A stretch of DNA of 64,000 nt from a virus: IMG/VR virus record IMGVR_UViG_3300009502_000034, positions 1 to 64,000 of that record, one strand, 5' to 3'. The position numbers were made by a program, and so were the translations under genes. The notes beneath the pieces were generated by a model, which worked only from the letters and a program-made list of their open reading frames with translations, did not search any database and was not told the DNA's origin. Position 1 is the first letter of the stretch, and every line of letters starts with the position of its first letter. Positions 13,879 to 50,328 of the stretch are shown here, one piece after another.

Positions 13879-14227
13879 GTGTCCGGGGAGCGATAATGAG
13901 ATTTAGTAAGATTTGGATGATACCGAAGGGTGAATTAATTAATATAGTGTAAATTGAGGCGTAAGGTTAATAGACCAGATTTAGTGACCTTAAATAATGA
14001 AATAGGAACATTGGGATATGTTGGTACTGGCAGAAAATACGGAGTAAGTGACCATGCTGTTAGAAAATGGGTTGGTTTGAAATGATACAGGGTCATCTAA
14101 AAGTAGGATGGATCCCTTTGAAGGATCCTATGAAGGTGCGAGTCCTTCCCCTGTAGCTAAAACAAATAAGTATCAAAAGGATTCTTACATTTCAAAGACA
14201 AAAGAAACAAGTTTGCCAATTTTTTTG
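13879..14227 (+). mobile_element. group I-like intron in the tRNA anticodon loop (349 nt)
   Basis: It lies after U34 of the tRNA. GCTT at the exon end can pair with GAGC in the intron as a P1 helix. Near its 3' end, TACAGGG pairs with CCCTGTA and encloses GAAGG/CCTTC and TAGGAT/ATCCTA hairpins. The classical S-element seen in the capsid intron is not evident, so the class is not settled. Confidence 0.55.
13896..14085 (+). pseudogene. decayed HNH homing-endonuclease remnant in the tRNA intron
   Basis: Two short frames in the intron resemble pieces of one homing endonuclease. 13896-13952 reads MRFSKIWMIPKGEL. 13954-14085 reads NRPDL...GYVGTGRKYGVSDHAVRKW, the helix-turn-helix end typical of HNH endonucleases. 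The catalytic HNH part is missing and the frames are shifted, so it should be inactive. Confidence 0.6.
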
Positions 14228-16150: not shown

Positions 16151-16226
16151 TCCCGAGTAACTCAGCTGGCAGAGTGCGAAACTGTTAATTTCGATGTCCC
16201 ACGTTCGATCCGTGGCTCGGGAGCCA
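16151..16226 (+). tRNA. tRNA-Asn (GUU)
   Basis: A complete cloverleaf: acceptor TCCCGAG/CTCGGGA, D-arm CTCAGCTGGCAGAG, anticodon loop CTGTTAA with GTT, T-arm with GTTCGATCC, G73 and encoded CCA. 76 nt. The tmRNA follows after ten bases. Confidence 0.9.
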
Positions 16227-16236
16227 ATATCAATGT

Positions 16237-16573
16237 GGGGGTGACTAGTATCGACCGGAAGTTGAAGTCTGTATTGCCTGTTGAGGTTGAGTCTCCTCGT
16301 TAAAAAGATTCAAAAAACAAAAGCTAACTCAAACTTAGCTCTGGCAGCTTAGCTGTCACGCCCACTTTTCCTTGCTCACGTGGTTAAAATGGGCGTCATT
16401 ACAGTGAGATATATCTACTAGTGCGTATGAGAGTAGACGAAAAACAATACGCTGAGGCGTGTCAAGGTTTGCGCATTTGTCTTTGATGCCCTAAAGCTAC
16501 AATTGCGCTACACAGGTAGATATACATGCGGACGCTTTTTGGGACCCGGGTGCGAATCCCGGCACCTCCACCA
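16237..16573 (+). ncRNA. ssrA: transfer-messenger RNA (tmRNA)
   Basis: The 5' end GGGGGTGACTAGTATCGACC and the 3' end with GGGTGCGAATCCC, CACCTCC and encoded CCA form the tRNA-like domain. Acceptor GGGGGTG pairs with CACCTCC. The tag frame ends ANSNLALAA followed by TAG (16323-16352). The exact resume codon is unsure and could lie further upstream. Length 337 nt is typical. tmRNA rescues stalled ribosomes and tags products for proteolysis; here a phage supplies its own. Confidence 0.92.
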
Positions 16574-25680: not shown

Positions 25681-26436
25681 ATGGATTTTGAAAAGAGATG
25701 TAAGATTTGTCATAGAACCATCCCACTTAGTAAGATCTACTGTTCTATGAGTTGTATGAAGATTGGTATAAGTCAAAAACTTAAGGGTATCAACAAGGTT
25801 AATCATTTTGTTTCCAAGTGTGAGGTATGTGGTAAAGAGTATAATAATGTTGAGGGAACTAAATTTAGAAAAACCTGTTCCACTAAGTGCAAACAAAAGT
25901 TAACAGGCATAACTAATAAGAAAAATGGATTAATGGTCTGGAATAAAGGGTTGACAAAGAAAGATTCTAGAGTTAGAAAATACATAGATGCGATTAAGAA
26001 GAGATTTCCAAAAGGCACCCACTATAACATTGGAAGAGTTTATTCAGAAGAACGAAATAATAAAATATCTAAGAGCCTAAAAGGCGTCCCACTAAGCAAA
26101 GAACATAGAAGAATTCTTAGTATTTCTAAGGGCGGGGACGGAACTCCAGTTAAGGGATATGGAGTTGAATTCAACTACGATTTAAAAGAAATGATTCGTG
26201 ATAGAGATGAAAGAAGATGTCAAAAATGTGGTGTACCAGAGGTGGAATGTATGACCAAGTTACCGATACATCACATAGACTATAACAAGAAAAATAACAG
26301 TGATGTGAATTTAATAGCATTATGTACAACCTGTCACCCTAAGACCAACTCTAATAGGAAGTATTGGGAAGAATATTTTACCCAATTAATGATATCTAAA
26401 ATAAGTTTCACGAACCCGAACCCAAGGAGATTTTAA
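25681..26436 (+). CDS. free-standing HNH homing endonuclease with NUMOD3
   Basis: Two N-terminal Cys knuckles (CKICHRT...CSMSC and CEVCGKEY...CSTKC) may be zinc-binding. NUMOD3-type segments follow near residues 118-150 (KISKSLKGVPLSKEHRR). The HNH domain is near residues 180-225: CQKCG, LPIHHIDYNKKN, N-L-I-A-L-CTTCH. Stop and portal start overlap as TAATG, so it is inserted directly in front of an intein-bearing gene. Confidence 0.88.
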   Translation: MDFEKRCKICHRTIPLSKIYCSMSCMKIGISQKLKGINKVNHFVSKCEVCGKEYNNVEGTKFRKTCSTKCKQKLTGITNKKNGLMVWNKGLTKKDSRVRKYIDAIKKRFPKGTHYNIGRVYSEERNNKISKSLKGVPLSKEHRRILSISKGGDGTPVKGYGVEFNYDLKEMIRDRDERRCQKCGVPEVECMTKLPIHHIDYNKKNNSDVNLIALCTTCHPKTNSNRKYWEEYFTQLMISKISFTNPNPRRF

Positions 26437-29400
26437 TGCCTAAAGAAGATCCCAAGATTGATAAGAGTCTCATTAAGAAGCTTAATGCCTCTAAACCAAT
26501 AGGGATAAGGGCTGGATTTCACCGTCAATCTGCTGAAGACATAGCTGATAAGATTACAATGGCTAGAGATAAACAAACCGCAAAGGGGTTCTCTAGGCAG
26601 GCCAATGATATGAGCTTCCAGTCCACCGGTGGCGCTGATAGAGTGCCGCTGCTTTACATGGACCCACTTTTCGACCCAGTAATAATGATGTTCCCCAAGG
26701 ACAATGTTAGGGAACTCAATAGACGTTTGCGCCATTATTATCAGTATAATCCGTATATCAGAAATATTATAGATCTCCACAGTGAGCTCCCGCTTAGTGA
26801 TTTTGATCTGAAGTGCGAAGACCCAGCCATAGAAAAATACTATAACGAATTTAAACAGCGCAAGCAGGTTCTTGAAACTTTTATCATGATGTCTAAGGAC
26901 TATTGGCTTCTTGGCGAAGGCATGATGTATGGTAATTGGGATGAGTATAATAGGGAGTTTTCTTCATTTAATCAGTATCCTCCGGAAGATGTCGAAATTA
27001 AAAACACATATCTTAATGAGTATATTTATTTAATGAAACCTAATGAAACCATCAAGAAGCAGATGCACTCCGCCGATCCCATAGACATGAAGTTAAATGA
27101 TGTCCTTGAGGCCGAGATGCCAGATTTTTATAACAAGATGATGTCAGGTCAGCCATACATTTTTAATAATTCCAGATTCATGCACTTAGCTAGAAGGCCG
27201 AATAAATATACACCAAGGGGCGTCAGTCCCGTGCTTTCGATAGTAAAAGATCTCATGTATGAAGATAAGCTTAGAATGCTGTTGATGACGTTTGTTGACA
27301 GGCACGTATTCCCTATTAAAATATTTAAAATTGGTTCTGAGGCAAAGGGATGGGTTCCACCTCCGTCAAAGATGAAGGAATTTGAGAATCTATTACTACA
27401 AGCCTGTTTCCCAGAAGATATAACAGAGATATTGACCGATTCAGGATTTAAGAAACACTGGGAAATCACTGACACCGATAAACTTGCGACAGTTAACCCA
27501 ACAACTGGATTGATGATGTATGAAAAACCATCTAAGAAGTACGTGTATGACTGGTCAGATGATGGTGCTGTTCATGAAGATAATGGACTAGAACCAGAAG
27601 CTGTTGGGGCGACCATCGAGTCTTTAAGGAAACTAGGTAAAGCCATTGGACTTGATAGTTATGAAAAGATTCCCCAATATGTTTCTAGTCTTAAAAGACC
27701 ATATATAAAAGCCTTTATTGACTCCTTCCTTTCAGAAAGAAAAGTATATTATAGATCAGATATTTCTGCCAAGGAACTAAGACTTAGAAATATTGACATG
27801 GTAGATAGTTTAAAACAATTATTCTTAACATTAGGATATAAGGCTAGGGTATTGCATAATGAATATCAGGGCGTCATGGCATACAATCTACAGTGGGTGG
27901 ATTACGGAACAGATTTAATACACTTTAAAACAGAATCAGTAGATTGTGTTGTGACCCCTAATCATAGGATGCTGGTAAAAGATTATAGAAATGATGGTGA
28001 ATGGAAAGCCAAAGAAGCCTATGAAGTAAAAACGGGTGACCAATTTAGAACGTATGTTGATGGGGTGGAAGATAATATTGAAGTACCAAAAACATATAGG
28101 CTTGGTAAATACGATATAGATATGAAGGATTTTGTTGAACTGATTGGATATGTTGTGACAGAAGGTGGAATAGACGCTAAGAATAGAAGAACAGTCATAA
28201 CACAGTCATCCTCAGCTAACCAAGATATATGTGAAAAAATAAAATCCTGCCTAGACAGAAGTGGGATATCATATAGAGTGCATTCAAGAGATTTTGAAAG
28301 TACGCTCAAGGGAAAGAAATATAAAAATAAATTAAATGATTATGTAATCAATGATGTGGATATTACTAATCAATTGTCTTTATTGCTTGGTGTTAAGACA
28401 AAAGAAAAACATCTTCCAAATATTGTAAAGAATTTACCTAAAGAATATTTACAAATTCTTTTTGATGCTATGATTGATGGTGATGGTACGATAATAAAAT
28501 CTAATCTTGGAGATTACAATAGATTCTATTTCTACCCATCATCTGATGAGCTAGCGAAAGATTTCCAGGAAATATGCTTTAAACTAGGGTTTAACTCTAG
28601 TTGTAGAGAAAGATTTATGAAGAGTCCATCATCTGAAAAAATATTGAGAAGTTTAAGAATAAATATTGTTAAGAGAGATGGAAAGAAAATTAAGAAAAAT
28701 TTTGAGCCTGTGATTTATAAAAAATCACAAGTTACAAAAGAAAAATATTCTGGAAAAGTTTTTTGTTATGATGTTGGAGCGAACCACACGCTCATTGTTA
28801 GACAGAATGGAAAAATTCTAATCACGATGAACAGCAACGATCCTGATTTTAATATAGTGACTCACCCATTCGTTAATGTGGATTACGTGGTTGGTAATGA
28901 TAAGATCATGGATGTCACAGCCCATATGGATTGGGTTGCTAAACGTTACATGGTAGGGCTCTTTGTTAATGACACCGTTCTTCATGGTGAACTTGGCACG
29001 TATGCTGCTCAATCAGTGAGTTTAAAAGTACTCATGAATAAATATATGGCGTTTAGAGAATCCGTATCAGGTTTATCAATAGATAAAATATTTAAACCGC
29101 TTGCTGTTGCTCGTGGTTTTAAAAAGAGAAAACAAGCAGATTTAGATCATAACGTAAGAACAACTGCTGATGAATATGATGTACCAAAAGTATTCTGGAG
29201 AAGGATGAACCTTCTTAACAGCAGAGACCTTATGGAGATGGTATCACGTCTTAGAGAAAACGGTGAAGTTCCGTTTAAATACGTCGCTGATATATTCGAT
29301 TGGGATGTTGAGGGGATTAAGAACGGGTTTAAAGAAGAAGAGGGCACGTCTCTTGATAAGCTTTGGAGAGATATAAGGATTAAGAAGAGCGAAGATCCCA

Positions 29401-29747
29401 ACATCGCAAGTCAGATTTTAGACGGCACTAAGACTGAAGATTTAAAAATACCCAAAGTAAAACTAGAGACTCAGGAAGAAAAAGATGGAGTGATGGCGGA
29501 AGAGCCAGCAGCTCTTTCTAATATGAAGACAGACTTGCTTGGCGGTCCTATGGGCGGTGGTGGTACACCCCCTCCGCCACCGATACCCGGCGCAGAATCA
29601 TTAGAGGCTCCAGGCCCATCAGCGGAAGCTGAAGCCGGAAAAAAGACAGGCGTTAATGGCCTAGAAGAAGCTGTTGGTGGACCGACAGAATCTAAGCTTC
29701 CTGGTGAACAAGGGTCTGCGGAAGCCGGCGGACCACCAGCACTATAA
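26436..29747 (+). CDS. portal protein with embedded intein
   Basis: The extein parts (residues 1-323 and 800-1103) join to about 627 residues. The joined sequence reads LLLQA-SNDPDFNIVTHPFVNVDYV, a pattern found in myovirus (T4 gp20-like) portals, which form the dodecameric DNA-entry ring. The C-terminus is Pro/Gly/Ala-rich low complexity. The intein occupies residues 324-799. The neighbouring protease and capsid genes support the call. Identification is by pattern and context. Confidence 0.8.
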   Translation: MPKEDPKIDKSLIKKLNASKPIGIRAGFHRQSAEDIADKITMARDKQTAKGFSRQANDMSFQSTGGADRVPLLYMDPLFDPVIMMFPKDNVRELNRRLRHYYQYNPYIRNIIDLHSELPLSDFDLKCEDPAIEKYYNEFKQRKQVLETFIMMSKDYWLLGEGMMYGNWDEYNREFSSFNQYPPEDVEIKNTYLNEYIYLMKPNETIKKQMHSADPIDMKLNDVLEAEMPDFYNKMMSGQPYIFNNSRFMHLARRPNKYTPRGVSPVLSIVKDLMYEDKLRMLLMTFVDRHVFPIKIFKIGSEAKGWVPPPSKMKEFENLLLQACFPEDITEILTDSGFKKHWEITDTDKLATVNPTTGLMMYEKPSKKYVYDWSDDGAVHEDNGLEPEAVGATIESLRKLGKAIGLDSYEKIPQYVSSLKRPYIKAFIDSFLSERKVYYRSDISAKELRLRNIDMVDSLKQLFLTLGYKARVLHNEYQGVMAYNLQWVDYGTDLIHFKTESVDCVVTPNHRMLVKDYRNDGEWKAKEAYEVKTGDQFRTYVDGVEDNIEVPKTYRLGKYDIDMKDFVELIGYVVTEGGIDAKNRRTVITQSSSANQDICEKIKSCLDRSGISYRVHSRDFESTLKGKKYKNKLNDYVINDVDITNQLSLLLGVKTKEKHLPNIVKNLPKEYLQILFDAMIDGDGTIIKSNLGDYNRFYFYPSSDELAKDFQEICFKLGFNSSCRERFMKSPSSEKILRSLRINIVKRDGKKIKKNFEPVIYKKSQVTKEKYSGKVFCYDVGANHTLIVRQNGKILITMNSNDPDFNIVTHPFVNVDYVVGNDKIMDVTAHMDWVAKRYMVGLFVNDTVLHGELGTYAAQSVSLKVLMNKYMAFRESVSGLSIDKIFKPLAVARGFKKRKQADLDHNVRTTADEYDVPKVFWRRMNLLNSRDLMEMVSRLRENGEVPFKYVADIFDWDVEGIKNGFKEEEGTSLDKLWRDIRIKKSEDPNIASQILDGTKTEDLKIPKVKLETQEEKDGVMAEEPAALSNMKTDLLGGPMGGGGTPPPPPIPGAESLEAPGPSAEAEAGKKTGVNGLEEAVGGPTESKLPGEQGSAEAGGPPAL
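27405..28832 (+). mobile_element. portal intein (476 aa) with LAGLIDADG endonuclease and an extra insertion
   Basis: Block A begins at Cys324 (CFPEDITEILTDSGF). Block B is TPNHRML (507). LAGLIDADG motifs are LIGYVVTEGG (569) and LFDAMIDGDG (675). Block F/G ends ILITMN (799) followed by Ser800 as +1 nucleophile. The usual penultimate His is Met. Between W373 and W487 lies about 113 residues resembling another endonuclease half (IPQYVSS, YIKAFIDSFLSE, LKQLFLTLGYKARV), an unusual position ahead of block B. Confidence 0.88.
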
Positions 29748-36134: not shown

Positions 36135-37011
36135 AGACAGTAGTATGGCGCTTTTACGGGAAACCGTAACCGAAACGTGAAATATGCTAGGAACTCCTTA
36201 GAGCCTCAACCACCGAAGAGTTAAAGTGTTGAGGATTGGACAACCAGCAGGAGGTTCAAGATGGGACATAAAAGAGTAAACAATCTCGCAATGACTTATG
36301 AGTTGGGATATGTGATAGGCGTATATTTTGGCGATGGTAGCATATGCAGTAGTGCCACCGAACAAAATAAGGGCAAGTCCTGGTTCTCTTTAACTACTAT
36401 AGATTTAGAGTTTGCAGAGTATGTTAAAGAGTGTTTGTCTATGTTTGTTGGTCCAATAGAAGGCGGGATCAATCACTACATAGATAAGAGATCTGGGAGA
36501 AAGCCGCAGAATCACTTGAGGGTAACTGCTTCAGATTTCTGTAGAGCAATATCGACAATCACAATGAATAAGACAAAGATACCAGAGATCGTTTACAATC
36601 ATCAATCAGTCAAACAAGGTTTCATAGAAGGCTTCCTTGATTCTGAGGGATGGGTAAGCAAAACTAAAGAAATTTGTAACAATCCAAAATCTAAGTATTA
36701 TGGACACAATCAATATAGAATAGGTTTTGGTTGTACAAATAAAGAAGTAATGAAGATAATGGGAAACTTTCTTTTTGAGTTTGGAGTTCAGATAAATCAG
36801 ATGAATGAGGCTCCAATACCGTCAGGAAAGACATTTTATCGTTACTTCATGAATATAGATAGTTTTGTTAACTCACCGCTCAAGTTCATAATTAAGAGGA
36901 AGCAAGATAGATTGATTGAATATAAAAGTCTTATCACCTCCCCAGAGACTACCAATCACAGCCCGCAGAAATAGGGTTAAGGTATAGTCCGATCTTCATA
37001 GAAATATGAAG
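36135..37011 (+). mobile_element. group I intron in the capsid gene (877 nt)
   Basis: It begins after a U (CGCT/AGACAG) and ends at a G. CGCT can pair with GGCG at 36146 as P1. The 3' part carries AAGGTATAGTCC, the S-like core segment of group I introns, followed by a TTCATA...TATGAA hairpin. It carries a LAGLIDADG gene. Splice sites are inferred from frame plus the group I rule. Confidence 0.75.
36261..36974 (+). CDS. intron-encoded LAGLIDADG homing endonuclease
   Basis: CAGGAGG precedes the ATG. 237 aa with two motifs, YVIGVYFGDGSI near residue 17 and FIEGFLDSEGWV near residue 118, so a single-chain two-motif enzyme. Both motif acidic residues (D and E) are present. It should cut the intron-less capsid gene and spread the intron. 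It may also assist splicing. Confidence 0.9.
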   Translation: MGHKRVNNLAMTYELGYVIGVYFGDGSICSSATEQNKGKSWFSLTTIDLEFAEYVKECLSMFVGPIEGGINHYIDKRSGRKPQNHLRVTASDFCRAISTITMNKTKIPEIVYNHQSVKQGFIEGFLDSEGWVSKTKEICNNPKSKYYGHNQYRIGFGCTNKEVMKIMGNFLFEFGVQINQMNEAPIPSGKTFYRYFMNIDSFVNSPLKFIIKRKQDRLIEYKSLITSPETTNHSPQK

Positions 37012-37791
37012 CTAACAGAAATGATGCAGGTCCCTCTTAAGAACCGTCTTGACTACGTGGCAATCGGCCGTAACAGAATGATCCTCGTAGACGAAATACC
37101 TCAGGGTGAGGTGCCAATATACGACCTTGATATTCCTGAATTCGGCGCCGTTACTATCGCTTCTCGTGGAGAACCACCCCACTTTCAAACGAACATCAAA
37201 AGGCTCCAGTTCCCCACTTTCCCTCTTACCATCGATCATGAGTTGAAATGGGAAGAGATTCAGATTCGTAGATATCCTGCATTTGATAGGGCGAAGGAAC
37301 GTGTTGCCATATCAATGGCTATTGCAGAAGACGATCTGATAATCTCCACGCTTGCAACCGCAGTAAAGAACGGTCCCAACACTTCGTTCACAGCTTCTTC
37401 CGTGACAAGGTATGCTATAGCGGATGCTTTCAAACAGATCCTCAGCAACCAGTTAATAGTCGGCGGAATTGCGATGAACCCAGCGCAGTATGCGGACATT
37501 CTTAAATGGAATACCAGCGACCTTGACCAGGTTTCCGTAAATACCATAATCGAGACTGGGCTTTTCGGCTCAATCTTTGGTTCCAAAATGATGGTCTCCA
37601 CCAGGATACCAGCAGGAACAGTTTATGTTTTTACTACTCCTGACAAGCTCGGAAGGCTTCCAGAACGTAAGGGTGTTGAAGTCAAGATATTTGACAACAT
37701 ACCTAGGGCGCAATATGATATAGTTGGTTTCGAGCAGATCGGAATCGGCATTCATAATACGGCCGGCATTACCAGCTTTACGATCGCTTAA
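37012..37791 (+). CDS. major capsid protein, exon 2
   Basis: Encodes 259 residues starting LTEMMQVPLKNRLDYVAIGR. IPQGEVPIYDLDI, later SMAIAEDDLIISTL and a C-terminal VFTTPDKLGRLP look like the P- and A-domain pattern of HK97-fold capsids in jumbo phages. The in-frame ATG at 37006 lacks a ribosome binding site, so it is not an independent gene. A strong terminator follows. Confidence 0.78.
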   Translation, partial: LTEMMQVPLKNRLDYVAIGRNRMILVDEIPQGEVPIYDLDIPEFGAVTIASRGEPPHFQTNIKRLQFPTFPLTIDHELKWEEIQIRRYPAFDRAKERVAISMAIAEDDLIISTLATAVKNGPNTSFTASSVTRYAIADAFKQILSNQLIVGGIAMNPAQYADILKWNTSDLDQVSVNTIIETGLFGSIFGSKMMVSTRIPAGTVYVFTTPDKLGRLPERKGVEVKIFDNIPRAQYDIVGFEQIGIGIHNTAGITSFTIA

Positions 37792-43950: not shown

Positions 43951-43972
43951 AGTCTTAACTATAGGAGCCGAA

Positions 43973-45139
43973 GTGAGACTAAATACAATTGATTTAATGC
44001 TTACAAATTCATGTAATTTAAGATGTGCTTTCTGTTATATAGGTCAGAATCAGCATGATATAATTTCACAAGAAGATGAGATCAAACGCAACATAGCAAC
44101 ATGTGAATGGGTTTTATCTCAATATCGTGTATCTATGTCAGAGGTTGACCCACAATATAGAATAATAAACTTTAATCTATATGGTGGTGAACCTACAATG
44201 GCATGGGAAAGTGTTAAAGCTTTAGTAGAATGGCGTAAAACTGTGTCAGATATAAATATTCAGATGGGCTTAGTTACTAACATGGTTTTAATGGATGAAG
44301 CTAAGATAGACTATTGTATAGCGAATAATGTAGGAATTCACCCATCTATAGACGGTTGTAAATCGGCCGAAGATATGTATAGGATAACTGCCGATGGAAG
44401 TACGGTATCTGATAAGGTATTTGCCAATGCTAAAGTTTTAACTAGTAAACTTAAAGGTCGTAGTTGCAGATCTACTATAGACCCTAAGACTGCTCCATTT
44501 ATGTTTGAATCTGTTAAATTTGTAACGCAAGAACTTGGTTTTACAACAGTAAACCAAGTATTGGCCGGTGGAGTAGATTGGAAAGACTCAGATATAGAAG
44601 TTGTCAAGACTCAATCTAGATTGATAACAGATTGGTGGTTAGATCAAATGCGTGTTGGAAAACATTATTCTTTATATTATATAAGGAATATGCTAACAGG
44701 CATTTGGAATCCAATTCGCAGAAGAGGATTATGTTCAAGCGGTGTTAGTCATGCTGCTATAGACACAGATGGTAATATTTATCCATGTCATAGATTTTGC
44801 GGAGGCACAACACCTCCTGAATATTTAATGGGTAATATCCATACTGGTGGAGTAGTAAATAAAGAATTAGAAGATAAATTAAAAAATTTTGATTTAGCCA
44901 AATACCATAAAGACAAATGTAGTGGATGTATAGCAGTTAATTCTTGTATGGCTTTGTGCTTACATGAGATGATGTTAAATGGAAGTATGTTTGAGCCTTT
45001 ACCTCATTATTGCAAACTGTGGCCGTTTTATTATGCAGAAGCAATGAGAGCACACGCAATAATGGACGCAGAGAGAAATCAGTTGTATTACCAAATCTAT
45101 CGTCCAAGACCTGCTCAAAATCAGGTTAGGAGAAACTAA
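43973..45139 (+). CDS. radical SAM/SPASM peptide-modifying enzyme
   Basis: GTG start after TAGGAGC. The protein has 388 residues. CNLRCAFC (Cys14, 18, 21) binds the S-adenosylmethionine iron-sulphur cluster; NLYGGEPT near residue 65 is the GGEP-type SAM motif. The C-terminal SPASM domain has Cys254, 272, 276, 316, 319, 325, 329 and 347 for auxiliary clusters. SPASM enzymes such as PapB, QhpD and anSME modify peptides. Its stop overlaps the Cys-repeat gene's start (TAATG), so that protein is the likely substrate. No RRE domain is evident. Confidence 0.9.
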   Translation: MRLNTIDLMLTNSCNLRCAFCYIGQNQHDIISQEDEIKRNIATCEWVLSQYRVSMSEVDPQYRIINFNLYGGEPTMAWESVKALVEWRKTVSDINIQMGLVTNMVLMDEAKIDYCIANNVGIHPSIDGCKSAEDMYRITADGSTVSDKVFANAKVLTSKLKGRSCRSTIDPKTAPFMFESVKFVTQELGFTTVNQVLAGGVDWKDSDIEVVKTQSRLITDWWLDQMRVGKHYSLYYIRNMLTGIWNPIRRRGLCSSGVSHAAIDTDGNIYPCHRFCGGTTPPEYLMGNIHTGGVVNKELEDKLKNFDLAKYHKDKCSGCIAVNSCMALCLHEMMLNGSMFEPLPHYCKLWPFYYAEAMRAHAIMDAERNQLYYQIYRPRPAQNQVRRN

Positions 45140-46419
45140 TGGCCTGTGTAACAAACGATTTAGTATATGGCGGACCTTGTAGTTATTGTGACCAAGGCCC
45201 CTGCATTTTCTGTGACCAAGGCCGTTGCTCTTCTTGCGACCAAGCCACCTGCTACTCTTGTGACCAAAGCACTTGCAGTGTTTGTGACCAAGGTAAATGC
45301 TCTGCTGGAGACAATGGCTGTTGTAATTATTTAGATGCAGGTAAGTGTAGTTTATCAGATTCTGGAATATGCTCTGGAAACGATTCTGGTAAATGTAGTA
45401 ATGGTGACCAAAATTTTTGTAGTAATTGTGACCAAGGACGTTGCTGGAATGGAGATGTAGGCCCTTGTGTTGGTTGGGACATCGGCCCCTGCTCGTATTG
45501 CGACCAAGCCTCTTGTTCTGTCTGCGACCAAGGCCCCTGCTCTTCTTGCGACCAAGCCCGTTGCTCTTCTTGTGACCAAGCTCGTTGTGCTGGCTGTGAC
45601 CAAGGCCCCTGCTCTTCTTGTGACCAAGCCGCTTGCCCACATTGTGACCAAGCCTCTTGTTCTGTCTGCGACCAATGGTCTCACTGCCCTAACGACATCG
45701 GCCCCTGCTCGTATTGTGACCAGGCTTCTTGCACAGGATGTGACCAAGGGAAATGTTCAGGTTGTGACCAGGCTTCTTGCACAGGATGTGACCAAGGGAA
45801 ATGTTCAGGTGGGGACCAGGCTTATTGCGTAGGATGTGACCAAGGGAAATGTTCAGGTTGTGACCAGGCTTCTTGCTCAAATTGTGACCAAGCTCGTTGT
45901 GCTTCGTGTGACCAAGGCCCCTGCTCTTCTTGCGATCAACGCTGGTGCTCTTCTTGCGACCAAGGCTATTGTGTTGGCTGTGACATCGGATATTGTATAA
46001 ACTGTGACCAAGGGAAATGTAGTGGTGTAGACCAAGGGAAATGTTCTGCTGGAGATATTGGGCCATGTAGAAATACTGATGCAGGTATTTGTTCTGCTTG
46101 TGATGAAGGACATTGTAGCAATGGAGATAATGGTTTATGTTTATTGTGTGATGATAGTCCATGTAAAATTAATGATATTACTGATTGGCCTTGCTCTCAA
46201 AATGATTCTGGAAAGTGTTCAAGTTGTGACCAAGGTTATTGTACAAACTGTGACCAAGGGAAATGTAGTGGTGAAGACCAAGGGAAATGTGCTGCTGGAG
46301 ATGTTGGACCTTGTACTAACTGCGACCAAGGTCCTTGCTTAGCAATGGATGTAGGCGGTTGTACGGCAAGCGACATGCCAGTTTATTTAATTATGACTAA
46401 TGTAAAAAAAAATAGATAA
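45139..46419 (+). CDS. giant Cys-x3-Asp octad-repeat protein, likely radical SAM substrate
   Basis: The protein has 426 residues, nearly all octads of the form C-x3-D-x3, for example CSSCDQGP or CSAGDNGC. I count 51 units: 50 keep Cys and Asp four apart, and one (HCPNDIGP) has the Cys shifted by one. About 31 units also have Cys at position 4; the others have G, N, S, L, W, V, T, E or M there. So C1 and D5 are the fixed pair. Cys-x3-Asp is the pattern crosslinked by ranthipeptide maturases. There is no signal peptide and no clear leader. It could instead be a metal-binding or beta-helical virion protein. Confidence 0.8.
   Translation: MACVTNDLVYGGPCSYCDQGPCIFCDQGRCSSCDQATCYSCDQSTCSVCDQGKCSAGDNGCCNYLDAGKCSLSDSGICSGNDSGKCSNGDQNFCSNCDQGRCWNGDVGPCVGWDIGPCSYCDQASCSVCDQGPCSSCDQARCSSCDQARCAGCDQGPCSSCDQAACPHCDQASCSVCDQWSHCPNDIGPCSYCDQASCTGCDQGKCSGCDQASCTGCDQGKCSGGDQAYCVGCDQGKCSGCDQASCSNCDQARCASCDQGPCSSCDQRWCSSCDQGYCVGCDIGYCINCDQGKCSGVDQGKCSAGDIGPCRNTDAGICSACDEGHCSNGDNGLCLLCDDSPCKINDITDWPCSQNDSGKCSSCDQGYCTNCDQGKCSGEDQGKCAAGDVGPCTNCDQGPCLAMDVGGCTASDMPVYLIMTNVKKNR
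45718..45861 (+). repeat. 48-bp tandem repeat inside the Cys-rich gene, three copies
   Basis: A 48-base unit (two octads, starting GACCAGGCTTCTTGC) occurs at 45718, 45766 and 45814 with few changes, and a partial fourth copy follows. It shows recent in-frame expansion of the repeat gene. Confidence 0.8.
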
Positions 46420-47070: not shown

Positions 47071-47276
47071 TAAAGCAGTATAATCTAAAGAAGAGAGGGA
47101 AAAATATGACTAGCGTGGACATACAAAAGTTTGTAAATAGGGCCAACATAACTGTAAAAGCAATGAAAAAGAATACGGAGGAAATGGCAGGTATAAACGA
47201 CGACTTGCGTGAGGCCATATGCACAGTAGAACAACTATCCCAAGCGTTTACCGGGAAAATAAAGAATGGTAAATAA
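47067..47276 (+). CDS. small helical protein (69 or 56 aa)
   Basis: The ATG at 47067 overlaps the previous stop. A second in-frame ATG at 47106 has the better ribosome binding site (AGAGGG). Helical and charged; overlaps the ligase start by eleven bases. Function unknown. Confidence 0.5.
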   Translation: MIKQYNLKKRGKNMTSVDIQKFVNRANITVKAMKKNTEEMAGINDDLREAICTVEQLSQAFTGKIKNGK

Positions 47277-50200
47277 TGCGCTAGAAATAGCTGCATTCCG
47301 TAAAGACATTATCAAGTTAAATCCTATATCTCAAATGTTAACTGAGTACAAGGATAATCTTGATATGAAGCTTTACACATTCGATGAATTGAAAACCTTT
47401 ATTGGTAATCAAAAAGCAACAGTATCGATCAAAATTGATGGAGAAATATGTCTGTCTGGAGATACATCAGTTAAGTTGTTGGACGGCACACATAAAACCG
47501 TTAAACAGTTATATGATCTCGGCGCTAAAGATTTTTACGTCTATAGTATAGATCAACAACAGGCTGTTGTCCCCGGTAGGTGTTCATCAGTTGTGTTAAC
47601 CGGTAAAAATAAAAAGGTGTTAAAAATAACACTAGATAATGGTGAATTTTTTAAGTGCACCGAGAACCATAAAATCATGTTAAGAAATGGCGAATATATA
47701 GAAGCTAAAGCATTAGTTGCCGGGGCATCTTTAATGCCGTTATATACGAGAATCTCTATTAGGGAAGATCATAAGGGAATAGTTGGTTACGAGATGTGCT
47801 ATAATCTCACAACTGATAAATGGGAATGGACTCATAAAATGGTGGCTCAAAGCATATATGAGGGCACGTTTAAAAATAAGGCCATACATCACAAAAATTT
47901 TAATAAACTTAACAACGTTCCAGATAATTTGTTAATAACCGACTGGGATGAACATGTTAAGTTGCACAAAGAATTAGCATATAAAGGAATGATGGCATAC
48001 AGAAATGATCCTGTGACTGGGCCTTTGTGGAGAGAGAGGCAAAAAAGGTCTCATTTAGCCATTTCCGATAGTAAAAGCAAAAACATTAAAATAGCATTAA
48101 GTGATCTCAGTGTTCGTAAATCTCTTTCAGAAGCCAATATTAAGGCTTGGAAAGATCCAGTTGTAAGGGCTAAGCGCTCTATTGGCATTAGCAAGGGGAA
48201 TACTGGTAAGGTCAGAACACAAGAGTTTAAGGATCTCCAGAGCATTATACAAACTAAATTACAAAACACGTCAGAATCCAAGAAAAGGAATAGTGAGAAA
48301 GCCAATGCGTTTTGGGCCTCAAACAGTGGAGTTAAGAGAAAAGCAAGAATGATTGTCAATGGCGCCGAGATTATGGCTTCTCGTTGGAAAGATGAAAATA
48401 TGGTTAACAAAATGAAGCTTGGAATGGTTAATGCTTGGGCTCACAAAACCGCAGAAGAAAAATCTCTTAACGCAAAAAGGGGATGGGAAACTAGAAGGGT
48501 TAAAAAAGTAGCGGTTAATCATAAGGTAGTATCAATAGAAGAGTGTGGGTACGAAGATGTATATGATTTAAGCATGGTTGAACCGGTGCATAACTTTGCT
48601 TTATCATGTGGAATTTTTGTGCATAATTGTGGTGTAAAATATGATGGTCAAAGAGCCATCACCTATACCAGGGGCGGGATGATTCGTTATGACATGCCGC
48701 TCACCAAAGAGATGGAAGAAATGTTCGCTCACAATGGCATATCAGAATTTACTGGCATAGGCGAGATGTTCGTTGTTAAAGAAGACGGCATGCCGCTGAG
48801 TTATCTTAAGGCTCAATCAATACTCAGATTGCCAAAGAACCTTGAAGAAGAATCTAGAATGAAAATGATGATGTTTGATGTGTATAGCATTAATAATAAT
48901 GTTATTATAAATAATCCATTGAGCGAGAGAATACAAAAAATACATACAATATTTAGTAAAGACGGTAAATATGTCATTCCAGCGCACTACGAAGAGAACG
49001 CAGGAATGGCAGAAATAGACAATCTTTGGAAGAAGGTCTTGGCTCCGGAAGAATATGGCTACGAGGGCCTAGTTGTTCATATTAATGATAAAATAATTAA
49101 GGTGAAGCCAATTTTGTCCTTTGATATGGTTATCGTCGCTATCAACAGGAGCAGGACTGATCCGGGGATGATAAGTGCTGTTGTAGCTTCTTTTATGGAT
49201 AAGGCTGGTCATTTTAGATTCCACGGCAAGATAGGGTCAGGATTTTCCGACCATGATAGACAATTGCTTTTCAGATGGGCTGAGCAGAACAAGGTGTTTG
49301 AGGATGATACCGGGCAAATATGGGTAAATCCATTTAAACATCCGTTAATAGCTGAAATACAAGGTGAAGAGGTTAGCATCAAGGATGGCCCTGCATATAA
49401 ATTTGAAAACAATAATTGGATAAGGATAGAAGATAAACTTACTGGTGTCGTAAGATACCCGGTAATTATACAATTTAGGCCAGATAAGAGAACTACACCA
49501 AGCGATTTAAGATTGGCGCAGATACCAGGATTTCCTGAAATTAAAGCATATCTGCAAAGGGCTGGTGGCGAACCTATTCATCCAGATGCAATGGTTATCC
49601 CTCCGTCTCCTTATAACAATGAGGGATTAACTGAGCGTGATGTTTGGCAATATTACAATGATAATAAAGAAGCAATCATCCACAATTATAAGGAGAATGA
49701 ACAAGCAGTGCCTCTCAAGGCTATGATCGGTATTATGACTAATGAGGGGCTACTTTATAGGCGTAAAGACGAAAACGATAAAGAGTTAGATTTTACCAAT
49801 CCATCTGAATACGATTTGAATAATACTGGTAGGACAGTCACTATGAATTTTGTTCTTGGTGATGAGGTTGACTTTATATATGTCGATGTAGACCCACAAC
49901 AAGAATTTCCTCTTGAAGATACTAAGAGAATAACTGAAGAGCTGGCAGAATATTTTCAGGAAAGCGATACCATAAAAGAGGTACAAATCTTTTTTAACGG
50001 GCTTACTGGATTTCATGTATATGGCGTGCTAAAACAAGCAACCCCAATAGATGAAGCGTCAGAAATGTTAAAAGGTATAATAAGGGAATATGTCGATTCT
50101 ACTCCGGATGAAAGGATAAGTGTTGGTCAAGAGAAACAGCCAGGGACAATTAAGCTTGACATATCCACATTTCATAAAGGCGGCGGATTGAAAATACCAT

Positions 50201-50328
50201 ATTCTCTGCATGAAATTACAGGTTTAGTGTGTAAGAGGGTTGAGGATATTAAATCATTTAAATACGAAGATGCTGCAGGGTATATCATGAAACAAGCAGG
50301 ACTTATAAATGTTGGAGGAAAACAGTGA
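47266..50328 (+). CDS. ATP-dependent DNA ligase fused to a primase-polymerase (AEP) domain, with intein
   Basis: Extein residues 1-61 and 455-1020. Motif I KIDGE (Lys56 as AMP acceptor) is next to the intein; after it come KYDGQRA, GIGEMFV, EGLVVHI and IIKVKP, the later nucleotidyltransferase motifs. From about residue 850 an archaeo-eukaryotic primase fold follows: YVDVDP (Asp874, Asp876), GFHVYG (His917), KLDIST (Asp965) and IPYSLHE (977-983). This resembles LigD of bacterial end joining, with domain order ligase then polymerase. It probably seals or fills DNA breaks. Confidence 0.8.
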   Translation: MVNNALEIAAFRKDIIKLNPISQMLTEYKDNLDMKLYTFDELKTFIGNQKATVSIKIDGEICLSGDTSVKLLDGTHKTVKQLYDLGAKDFYVYSIDQQQAVVPGRCSSVVLTGKNKKVLKITLDNGEFFKCTENHKIMLRNGEYIEAKALVAGASLMPLYTRISIREDHKGIVGYEMCYNLTTDKWEWTHKMVAQSIYEGTFKNKAIHHKNFNKLNNVPDNLLITDWDEHVKLHKELAYKGMMAYRNDPVTGPLWRERQKRSHLAISDSKSKNIKIALSDLSVRKSLSEANIKAWKDPVVRAKRSIGISKGNTGKVRTQEFKDLQSIIQTKLQNTSESKKRNSEKANAFWASNSGVKRKARMIVNGAEIMASRWKDENMVNKMKLGMVNAWAHKTAEEKSLNAKRGWETRRVKKVAVNHKVVSIEECGYEDVYDLSMVEPVHNFALSCGIFVHNCGVKYDGQRAITYTRGGMIRYDMPLTKEMEEMFAHNGISEFTGIGEMFVVKEDGMPLSYLKAQSILRLPKNLEEESRMKMMMFDVYSINNNVIINNPLSERIQKIHTIFSKDGKYVIPAHYEENAGMAEIDNLWKKVLAPEEYGYEGLVVHINDKIIKVKPILSFDMVIVAINRSRTDPGMISAVVASFMDKAGHFRFHGKIGSGFSDHDRQLLFRWAEQNKVFEDDTGQIWVNPFKHPLIAEIQGEEVSIKDGPAYKFENNNWIRIEDKLTGVVRYPVIIQFRPDKRTTPSDLRLAQIPGFPEIKAYLQRAGGEPIHPDAMVIPPSPYNNEGLTERDVWQYYNDNKEAIIHNYKENEQAVPLKAMIGIMTNEGLLYRRKDENDKELDFTNPSEYDLNNTGRTVTMNFVLGDEVDFIYVDVDPQQEFPLEDTKRITEELAEYFQESDTIKEVQIFFNGLTGFHVYGVLKQATPIDEASEMLKGIIREYVDSTPDERISVGQEKQPGTIKLDISTFHKGGGLKIPYSLHEITGLVCKRVEDIKSFKYEDAAGYIMKQAGLINVGGKQ
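47449..48627 (+). mobile_element. ligase intein (393 aa), HNH type
   Basis: Starts at Cys62 (CLSGDTSVKLLDG) and ends FVHN before Cys455. Block B is TENHKIML. The endonuclease part is HNH-like: AIHHKNFNKLNN then P-D-N-L, followed by NUMOD-like Lys/Ala helices. It interrupts the ligase three residues after the motif I KIDG. Confidence 0.92.

Follow-up and report, generated by a model that had tools for sequence, protein, structure and literature searches.

Why should a tailed phage encode a radical SAM/SPASM enzyme immediately ahead of a very long protein composed of Cys-x3-Asp octads, and does the one act on the other? The two genes lie in the stretch of DNA analyzed here (the window), which consists of bases 1-64000 of the 78,565-base record IMGVR_UViG_3300009502_000034; features past its end are given in the coordinates G000 or L009, and the same phage is also represented by a second contig, IMGVR_UViG_3300009175_000027. 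Portal and major head genes are present at 26436-29747 and 37006-37791, and baseplate and tail-fibre genes follow on the continuation of the record, so this is a tailed phage. The window also contains a tmRNA gene (16237-16573, tag ANSNLALAA), with tRNA-Gln and tRNA-Asn genes at 14086-14157 and 16151-16226. A 1020-aa ORF at 47266-50328 contains an apparent HNH-bearing intein (PHROG HNH endonuclease matches, residues 174-239), and the 1103-aa portal ORF has an endonuclease-like segment at residues 569-764 that is probably a second one.

The first gene of the pair (43973-45139, plus strand, GTG start) encodes a 388-aa product. Translation and alignment place Cys14, Cys18 and Cys21 in the CX3CX2C motif that binds the SAM cluster (44012-44035), and eight further cysteines follow at residues 254, 272, 276, 316, 319, 325, 329 and 347. 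Seven of these eight, all but Cys276, align with the SPASM cysteines of PapB, QhpD and the SCIFF maturases, and the SPASM region extends from Cys254 to Cys347 (44732-45013). Together with Pfam matches to Radical_SAM (E 3.6e-8) and SPASM (E 1.4e-4) these features place the protein in the radical SAM/SPASM superfamily, as originally predicted from the cysteines. The gene is joined to the next by the one-base overlap that had also been noted (TAATG), and each has an AGGAG ribosome-binding site on the plus strand a few bases 5' of its start codon, at 43963-43967 for the enzyme gene and at 45128-45132, within the end of the enzyme gene, for the second. The latter site lies in the segment AGGAGAAACTAATGGCCTGTGTA, an identical copy of which occurs 5' of a second octad gene described below.

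The second gene (45139-46419, plus strand, ATG start) encodes the predicted substrate, which is 426 aa long. The protein contains 50 exact C-x3-D units, and in one more the spacing is shifted to C-x2-D (HCPND); together these account for the 51 octads originally counted. Its main array (residues 14-412; 45178-46374, plus strand) has the consensus C-S-x-C-D-Q-[GA]-x and a unit spacing of eight that is interrupted by just three breaks. When residues are counted independently of the motif, 50 of the 83 cysteines fall at position 1, 31 at position 4 and two elsewhere, and 50 of the 53 aspartates fall at position 5; position 6 is Gln in 32 units and position 7 is Gly or Ala in 42. Shuffles of the same residues gave a mean of ten C-x3-D motifs and a maximum of 20 in 2000 trials, against the 50 observed. 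The original description of Cys1 and Asp5 as kept while other positions vary was thus right about the fixed pair, and overlooked Cys4, which is common yet optional (31/50 units here and roughly two thirds of the units across the family). The array is not a fresh duplication, because many codons differ from unit to unit and even those of the conserved residues vary synonymously (Cys TGT 29, TGC 21; Asp GAC 35, GAT 15). The C-x3-D units begin at residue 3, and the N-terminus has no leader-like character.

Past the window end the same phage encodes a second octad protein of 393 aa with 32 C-x3-D units (G000:72722-73903; L009:12723-13904). The two proteins begin alike (MACV[TA]NDLVYGGPC), and stretches of as many as 64 bases, identical in DNA but at shifted positions, occur in both arrays, so that the two copies must recombine or undergo conversion. 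The second copy is preceded by the gene for a baseplate wedge protein (phrog_6, E 2e-28) and then by one whose Ig-like tail match is weak, and a tail-fibre gene (phrog_8469) lies downstream; the octad protein ends in an fn3-like domain that falls below the Pfam cut-off (E 7.6e-4). Following the tail-fibre gene is an ORF (L009:16130-16966) that by eye resembles a papain-like cysteine peptidase in translation. Only one radical SAM gene of this type was found in the 78,565-base record, and a single enzyme would therefore serve both octad proteins.

To ask how general this arrangement is, 2.9 million viral contigs were scanned at the DNA level for four tandem C-x3-D octads, and more strictly for CxxCD[QE][GA] doublets. 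Counting the window phage, this brought the lineages with arrays of the CxxCD or CDGD type to six. Among the five lineages represented by records longer than 6 kb, all five have a SPASM enzyme gene adjoining the array, at distances from a one-base overlap to a few hundred bases; in 50 control viral loci drawn by the same pattern and lacking a true array there was no SPASM match (0/50; Fisher p 3e-7). The relatives include G001 (200,903 bases), whose 62 units come after linkers rich in Ser and a Laminin_G_3 domain (E 1.7e-14); G003 (60,178 bases), with about 40 units in a gene downstream of the tape-measure gene; a single phage present as two records (G004 and G005), with eight units between TTTEGP linkers; and the more distant lineage G006, with a CDGD-type array. 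Their enzymes are 50, 38, 38 and 26% identical to that of the window. In the sixth lineage, L030, an array of 21 units with spacers rich in Thr adjoins major tail genes; no radical SAM gene is present within the 5.7 kb of this record, which is too short and was left out of the pairing count. The search for this pair in other phages thus bore out the prediction, and the refuting pattern, repeats that regularly lack an accompanying radical SAM gene, was absent from the testable records.

Several weaker candidates were discarded. An array match in Enterococcus phage 156 lies opposite an annotated gene and another in Bordetella phage BIP-1 is on the minus strand in VR2, and both were treated as unrelated; the DPC[DE]CGWG repeats of Phycisphaerales have a different spacing and no related enzyme was found with them. 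In a C-x3-D scan of bacteria most of the matches listed were short or out-of-frame repeats.

The consistent pairing bears on whether the array is simply a Cys-rich scaffold held together by disulfides or metal ions, with the radical SAM gene serving some other target. CxxC pairs are indeed frequent, and Cys-rich repeats such as those of Phycisphaerales exist apart from any related enzyme. However, the second cysteine of CxxC is dispensable where Cys1 and Asp5 are not, and an enzyme adjoins the array in five of five lineages as against none of 50 controls, so that we give this explanation hardly any credence.

What kind of enzyme is it? The best NCBIfam model for the window enzyme is PapB (NF047865, E 1.2e-45), and PapB is the top model for all five octad enzymes, followed by QhpD, SCIFF or Nif11 maturases. 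However, the curated cut-off of 340 bits is reached neither by the window enzyme (156 bits) nor by its relatives (118-225 bits), and because Paenibacillus SPASM paralogues score alike (113-223 bits) we did not accept the PapB score as proof of identity. The QhpD and SCIFF cut-offs are likewise missed (TIGR03906, 124 bits against 453; TIGR03974, 119 bits against 425), and at the 274 and 332 columns the window enzyme has Arg and Glu. An AlphaFold model of the enzyme matches CteB (E 2e-19, TM 0.73), which is the nearest solved structure by both sequence and fold (5wgg/5why). Structure prediction, proposed at the outset for both proteins, was informative for the enzyme and gave no usable model of the bare array, for which AlphaFold returned no fold (pLDDT 30); this says little, because AlphaFold cannot model thioethers.

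For comparison we assembled nine PapB genes scoring above the cut-off, six SCIFF maturases, and four QhpD genes, the last obtained in a wide search after one of 15 proteobacterial genomes had returned none. In a tree of these enzymes the nine PapB proteins are monophyletic (100/99) and four of the phage octad enzymes group in a clade of their own (100/100); the G006 enzyme, whose SPASM region aligns poorly, is placed elsewhere. The octad enzymes also lack the N-terminal region of PapB that presumably binds the leader: 13 residues precede the CX3CX2C motif in the window enzyme and 6-18 in its relatives, compared with 109-118 in PapB and about 110 in QhpD. A short ORF with the C-x2-C-D motif precedes the PapB gene in all nine cases, an example being GCSVNDYCYFCDTKDYCRACDGSDWCNYSDT with six C-x3-D motifs. 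The window enzyme resembles PapB in having a C-x3-D substrate gene next to it, but that substrate is a protein of 426 aa and not the short precursor with a removable leader that characterizes a ranthipeptide. Judged from its sequence, the window enzyme works like PapB and QhpD, yet it is not a member of the PapB family, because the cut-off is missed, the clade is separate, and both the N-terminal region and a short precursor are missing. With the leader-binding region and short precursor gone, substrate recognition must rest on the repeats themselves or on an unseen partner.

The active-site residues indicate the nature of the acceptor. PapB and QhpD join Cys to Asp or Glu (PMC8172795) and CteB joins Cys to Thr (PMC11002830). 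The column of Arg274 (44792-44794, plus strand, in the motif YPCHRF) is Arg in 9/9 PapB, 4/4 QhpD and 5/5 octad-phage enzymes and Gln in 6/6 SCIFF maturases; that of Glu332 (44966-44968, plus strand) is Glu in 9/9 PapB, 4/4 QhpD and four of the five octad-phage enzymes, all but G006, and Asn in 6/6 SCIFF maturases. In PapB_L230, whose precursor has six C-x3-D motifs, the Arg aligned with Arg274 is residue 372, a numbering consistent with its identity to the published PapB Arg372, and an R372A mutant of PapB is inactive (PMC9413430). PapB moreover requires an acidic acceptor, since a change of Asp to Asn fails and one to Glu works (PMC8172795). The conserved Arg and Glu thus indicate an acidic acceptor, in line with the fixed Asp5.

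It is nevertheless conceivable that the octads are modified with other chemistry or connectivity, such as sactionine bonds from sulfur to the alpha carbon, cross-links from Cys4, modification of only some units, or a different radical change. The octad enzymes do form their own clade, Cys4 is widespread in the arrays, and PapB tolerates spacings of n = 0-6 in minimal Cys-Xn-Asp substrates (PMC9413430). Set against this, Arg274 and Glu332 match the Asp/Glu-linking enzymes, Asp5 is as fixed as Cys1 where Cys4 is optional, and on nested peptides PapB prefers CX3D to CX0D (PMC9413430), and we regard departures of this kind as unlikely. PapB precursors often contain a nested C4-x3-D8, but none of the 31 Cys4 residues of the window array has Asp or Glu at +4. 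The octad therefore amounts to the unit of a PapB precursor, placed in tandem and without D8, and a bond between Cys1 and Asp5 is likely, with Cys4 left free or used later. As to the predicted cross-linking of the repeats, the pairing of a PapB/QhpD-like enzyme with a C-x3-D substrate is supported by adjacency in 5/5 lineages, the C-x2-C-D motif of the precursors and the retained Arg; the thioether itself is predicted.

Where would such a product act? The first array is at the edge of the head-gene block and outside any tail block, whereas the second copy lies in a structural module, and in the relatives the arrays are fused to Laminin-G-like domains or have tail-tube, major tail and tape-measure genes as neighbors. 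The modified protein might instead be a non-virion RiPP-like product, secreted or intracellular, that acts against competitors or superinfecting phages, as the small peptides made by known PapB-type systems and the short ORFs of unknown function 3' of the first array gene could suggest. However, no peptidase or exporter was noticed adjoining the enzyme-array pair, the octad proteins of relatives are 366 to over 1200 aa long, some with Laminin_G_3 fusions or Thr/Ser-rich spacers and tail-gene neighbors, and the second copy is within the tail module; a non-virion role seems to us very unlikely. The prediction of a virion protein has thereby gained a tail setting, and gene neighborhoods and fusions suggest that the octad proteins are virion components.

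We consider it likely that the window encodes a PapB/QhpD-like thioether synthase that works independently of a leader and staples both octad proteins, which would be parts of the virion, mostly of the tail and adhesins. In the host cytoplasm it would act on the neighboring array and on the second octad protein of the tail module, joining the Cys1 sulfur to the Asp5 beta carbon in each octad. The CX3CX2C cluster would cleave SAM and the resulting radical would take a hydrogen from the Asp beta carbon, while the SPASM cluster would hold the Cys thiolate and Arg274, with Glu332, would position the Asp carboxylate. Up to about 50 small rings could form in the first protein and 32 in the second, each with a loss of 2.016 Da, and Cys4 would stay free or serve later disulfides. 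In the virion the modified arrays may serve as stalks, linkers or surface extensions, with thioethers making them resistant to proteolysis and reduction in a setting that precludes disulfides; that they make up a stiff rod or shield, as first proposed, is a guess. Because distantly related phages repeat the enzyme-array pairing on tail-associated proteins, these phages probably introduce dozens of permanent sulfur bridges into components of their own particles.

If a Cys-x3-acid motif with its own enzyme is a principle of wider use, arrays with other periods or with Glu should exist. Scans for C-x3-E octads and for periods of nine and seven gave 178 loci, only two of which have SPASM-type radical SAM matches. 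At L322:260-4464 a 959-aa tail-like protein has a Cys/Asp-rich C-terminal tail and the enzyme lies 50 bases on; its motif is YGCQEM where the octad enzymes have PCHRF, and its acceptor may accordingly differ. At L257:1-1970 F5/8 type C domains and Ser linkers precede a (CGCECPEE)n tail, and a radical SAM gene comes directly after, truncated where the available sequence ends.

Less similar loci were also seen. Fibre-like proteins with terminal CTGGC/CSGSC-type repeats have SPASM radical SAM genes close by at L211:3294-7161 and L253:4442-7245, PHROG 6085 (unknown function) spanning part of the Cys repeats, and L210 likewise has a Cys-rich fibre-like protein with a SPASM gene. On one viral contig a Cys-rich protein of 97 aa is encoded close to four radical SAM ORFs (L207:3960-11116). 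Four human-gut phage records with SCIFF-type maturases (PCHQF; L248, L249, L250 and L252) resemble bacterial DNA and were excluded.

Radical SAM thioether chemistry has so far been a matter of small peptides and one enzyme subunit. If the proposed stapling is correct, what is new here is its use at tens of sites per repeat protein, without a leader and within virus particles. Such stapling would account for the presence of SPASM enzymes in some phages, reinforce virions covalently without the need for an oxidizing compartment, and provide a leaderless enzyme with which long repeat polymers could be stapled. An unusually easy test follows, as about 100.8 Da would be lost from one 426-residue protein. 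More tentatively, and with doubt prevailing, several unrelated phage groups may independently have come to mature tail and adhesin proteins with radical SAM enzymes, dozens of reduction-proof thioether staples being installed in the reducing cytoplasm. After release, interchain disulfides between the remaining Cys4 residues would lace the fibre a second time, and virions would thus have a general, undescribed route to cross-linking.

Among the closest known systems is PapA/PapB of Paenibacillus polymyxa, which makes the ranthipeptide freyrasin and has the same C-x3-D geometry, the same C-x2-C-D unit, adjacent genes, and an enzyme with Arg at position 372, Glu in the 332 column and a seven-Cys SPASM domain. 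The PapA precursor is roughly 50 aa, however, against a phage substrate of 426 aa and 50 units, and the phage system is phage-encoded, without a leader or leader-binding region, and has Cys4 without a D8 partner. QhpD is alike in forming Cys-Asp/Glu thioethers within a larger protein and not a short peptide (PMC8172795) and in its Arg and Glu signature; it differs in the length of the region ahead of CX3CX2C and in its substrate, a subunit with three thioethers. The SCIFF maturases, including CteB (thermocellin), offer the nearest structure, but have Gln where the window enzyme has Arg274 and Asn where it has Glu332, and CteB forms a Cys-Thr bond (PMC11002830). A search of open published papers found none on radical SAM cross-linking of phage virions, in agreement with the original remark that no described phage example of this size was known. 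Campylobacter phages CP220 and CPt10 do encode radical SAM proteins, which match the window enzyme distantly and whose genes were proposed to be metabolic (PMC2853527). Beside the matching CP220/CPt10 gene we saw no Cys-rich repeat gene. The HK97-type capsid cross-link is a self-catalysed Lys-Asn isopeptide bond formed without a separate radical enzyme. It resembles the proposed staples as a covalent bond that stiffens the virion, and differs from them in the bond, its catalysis and its location in the capsid.
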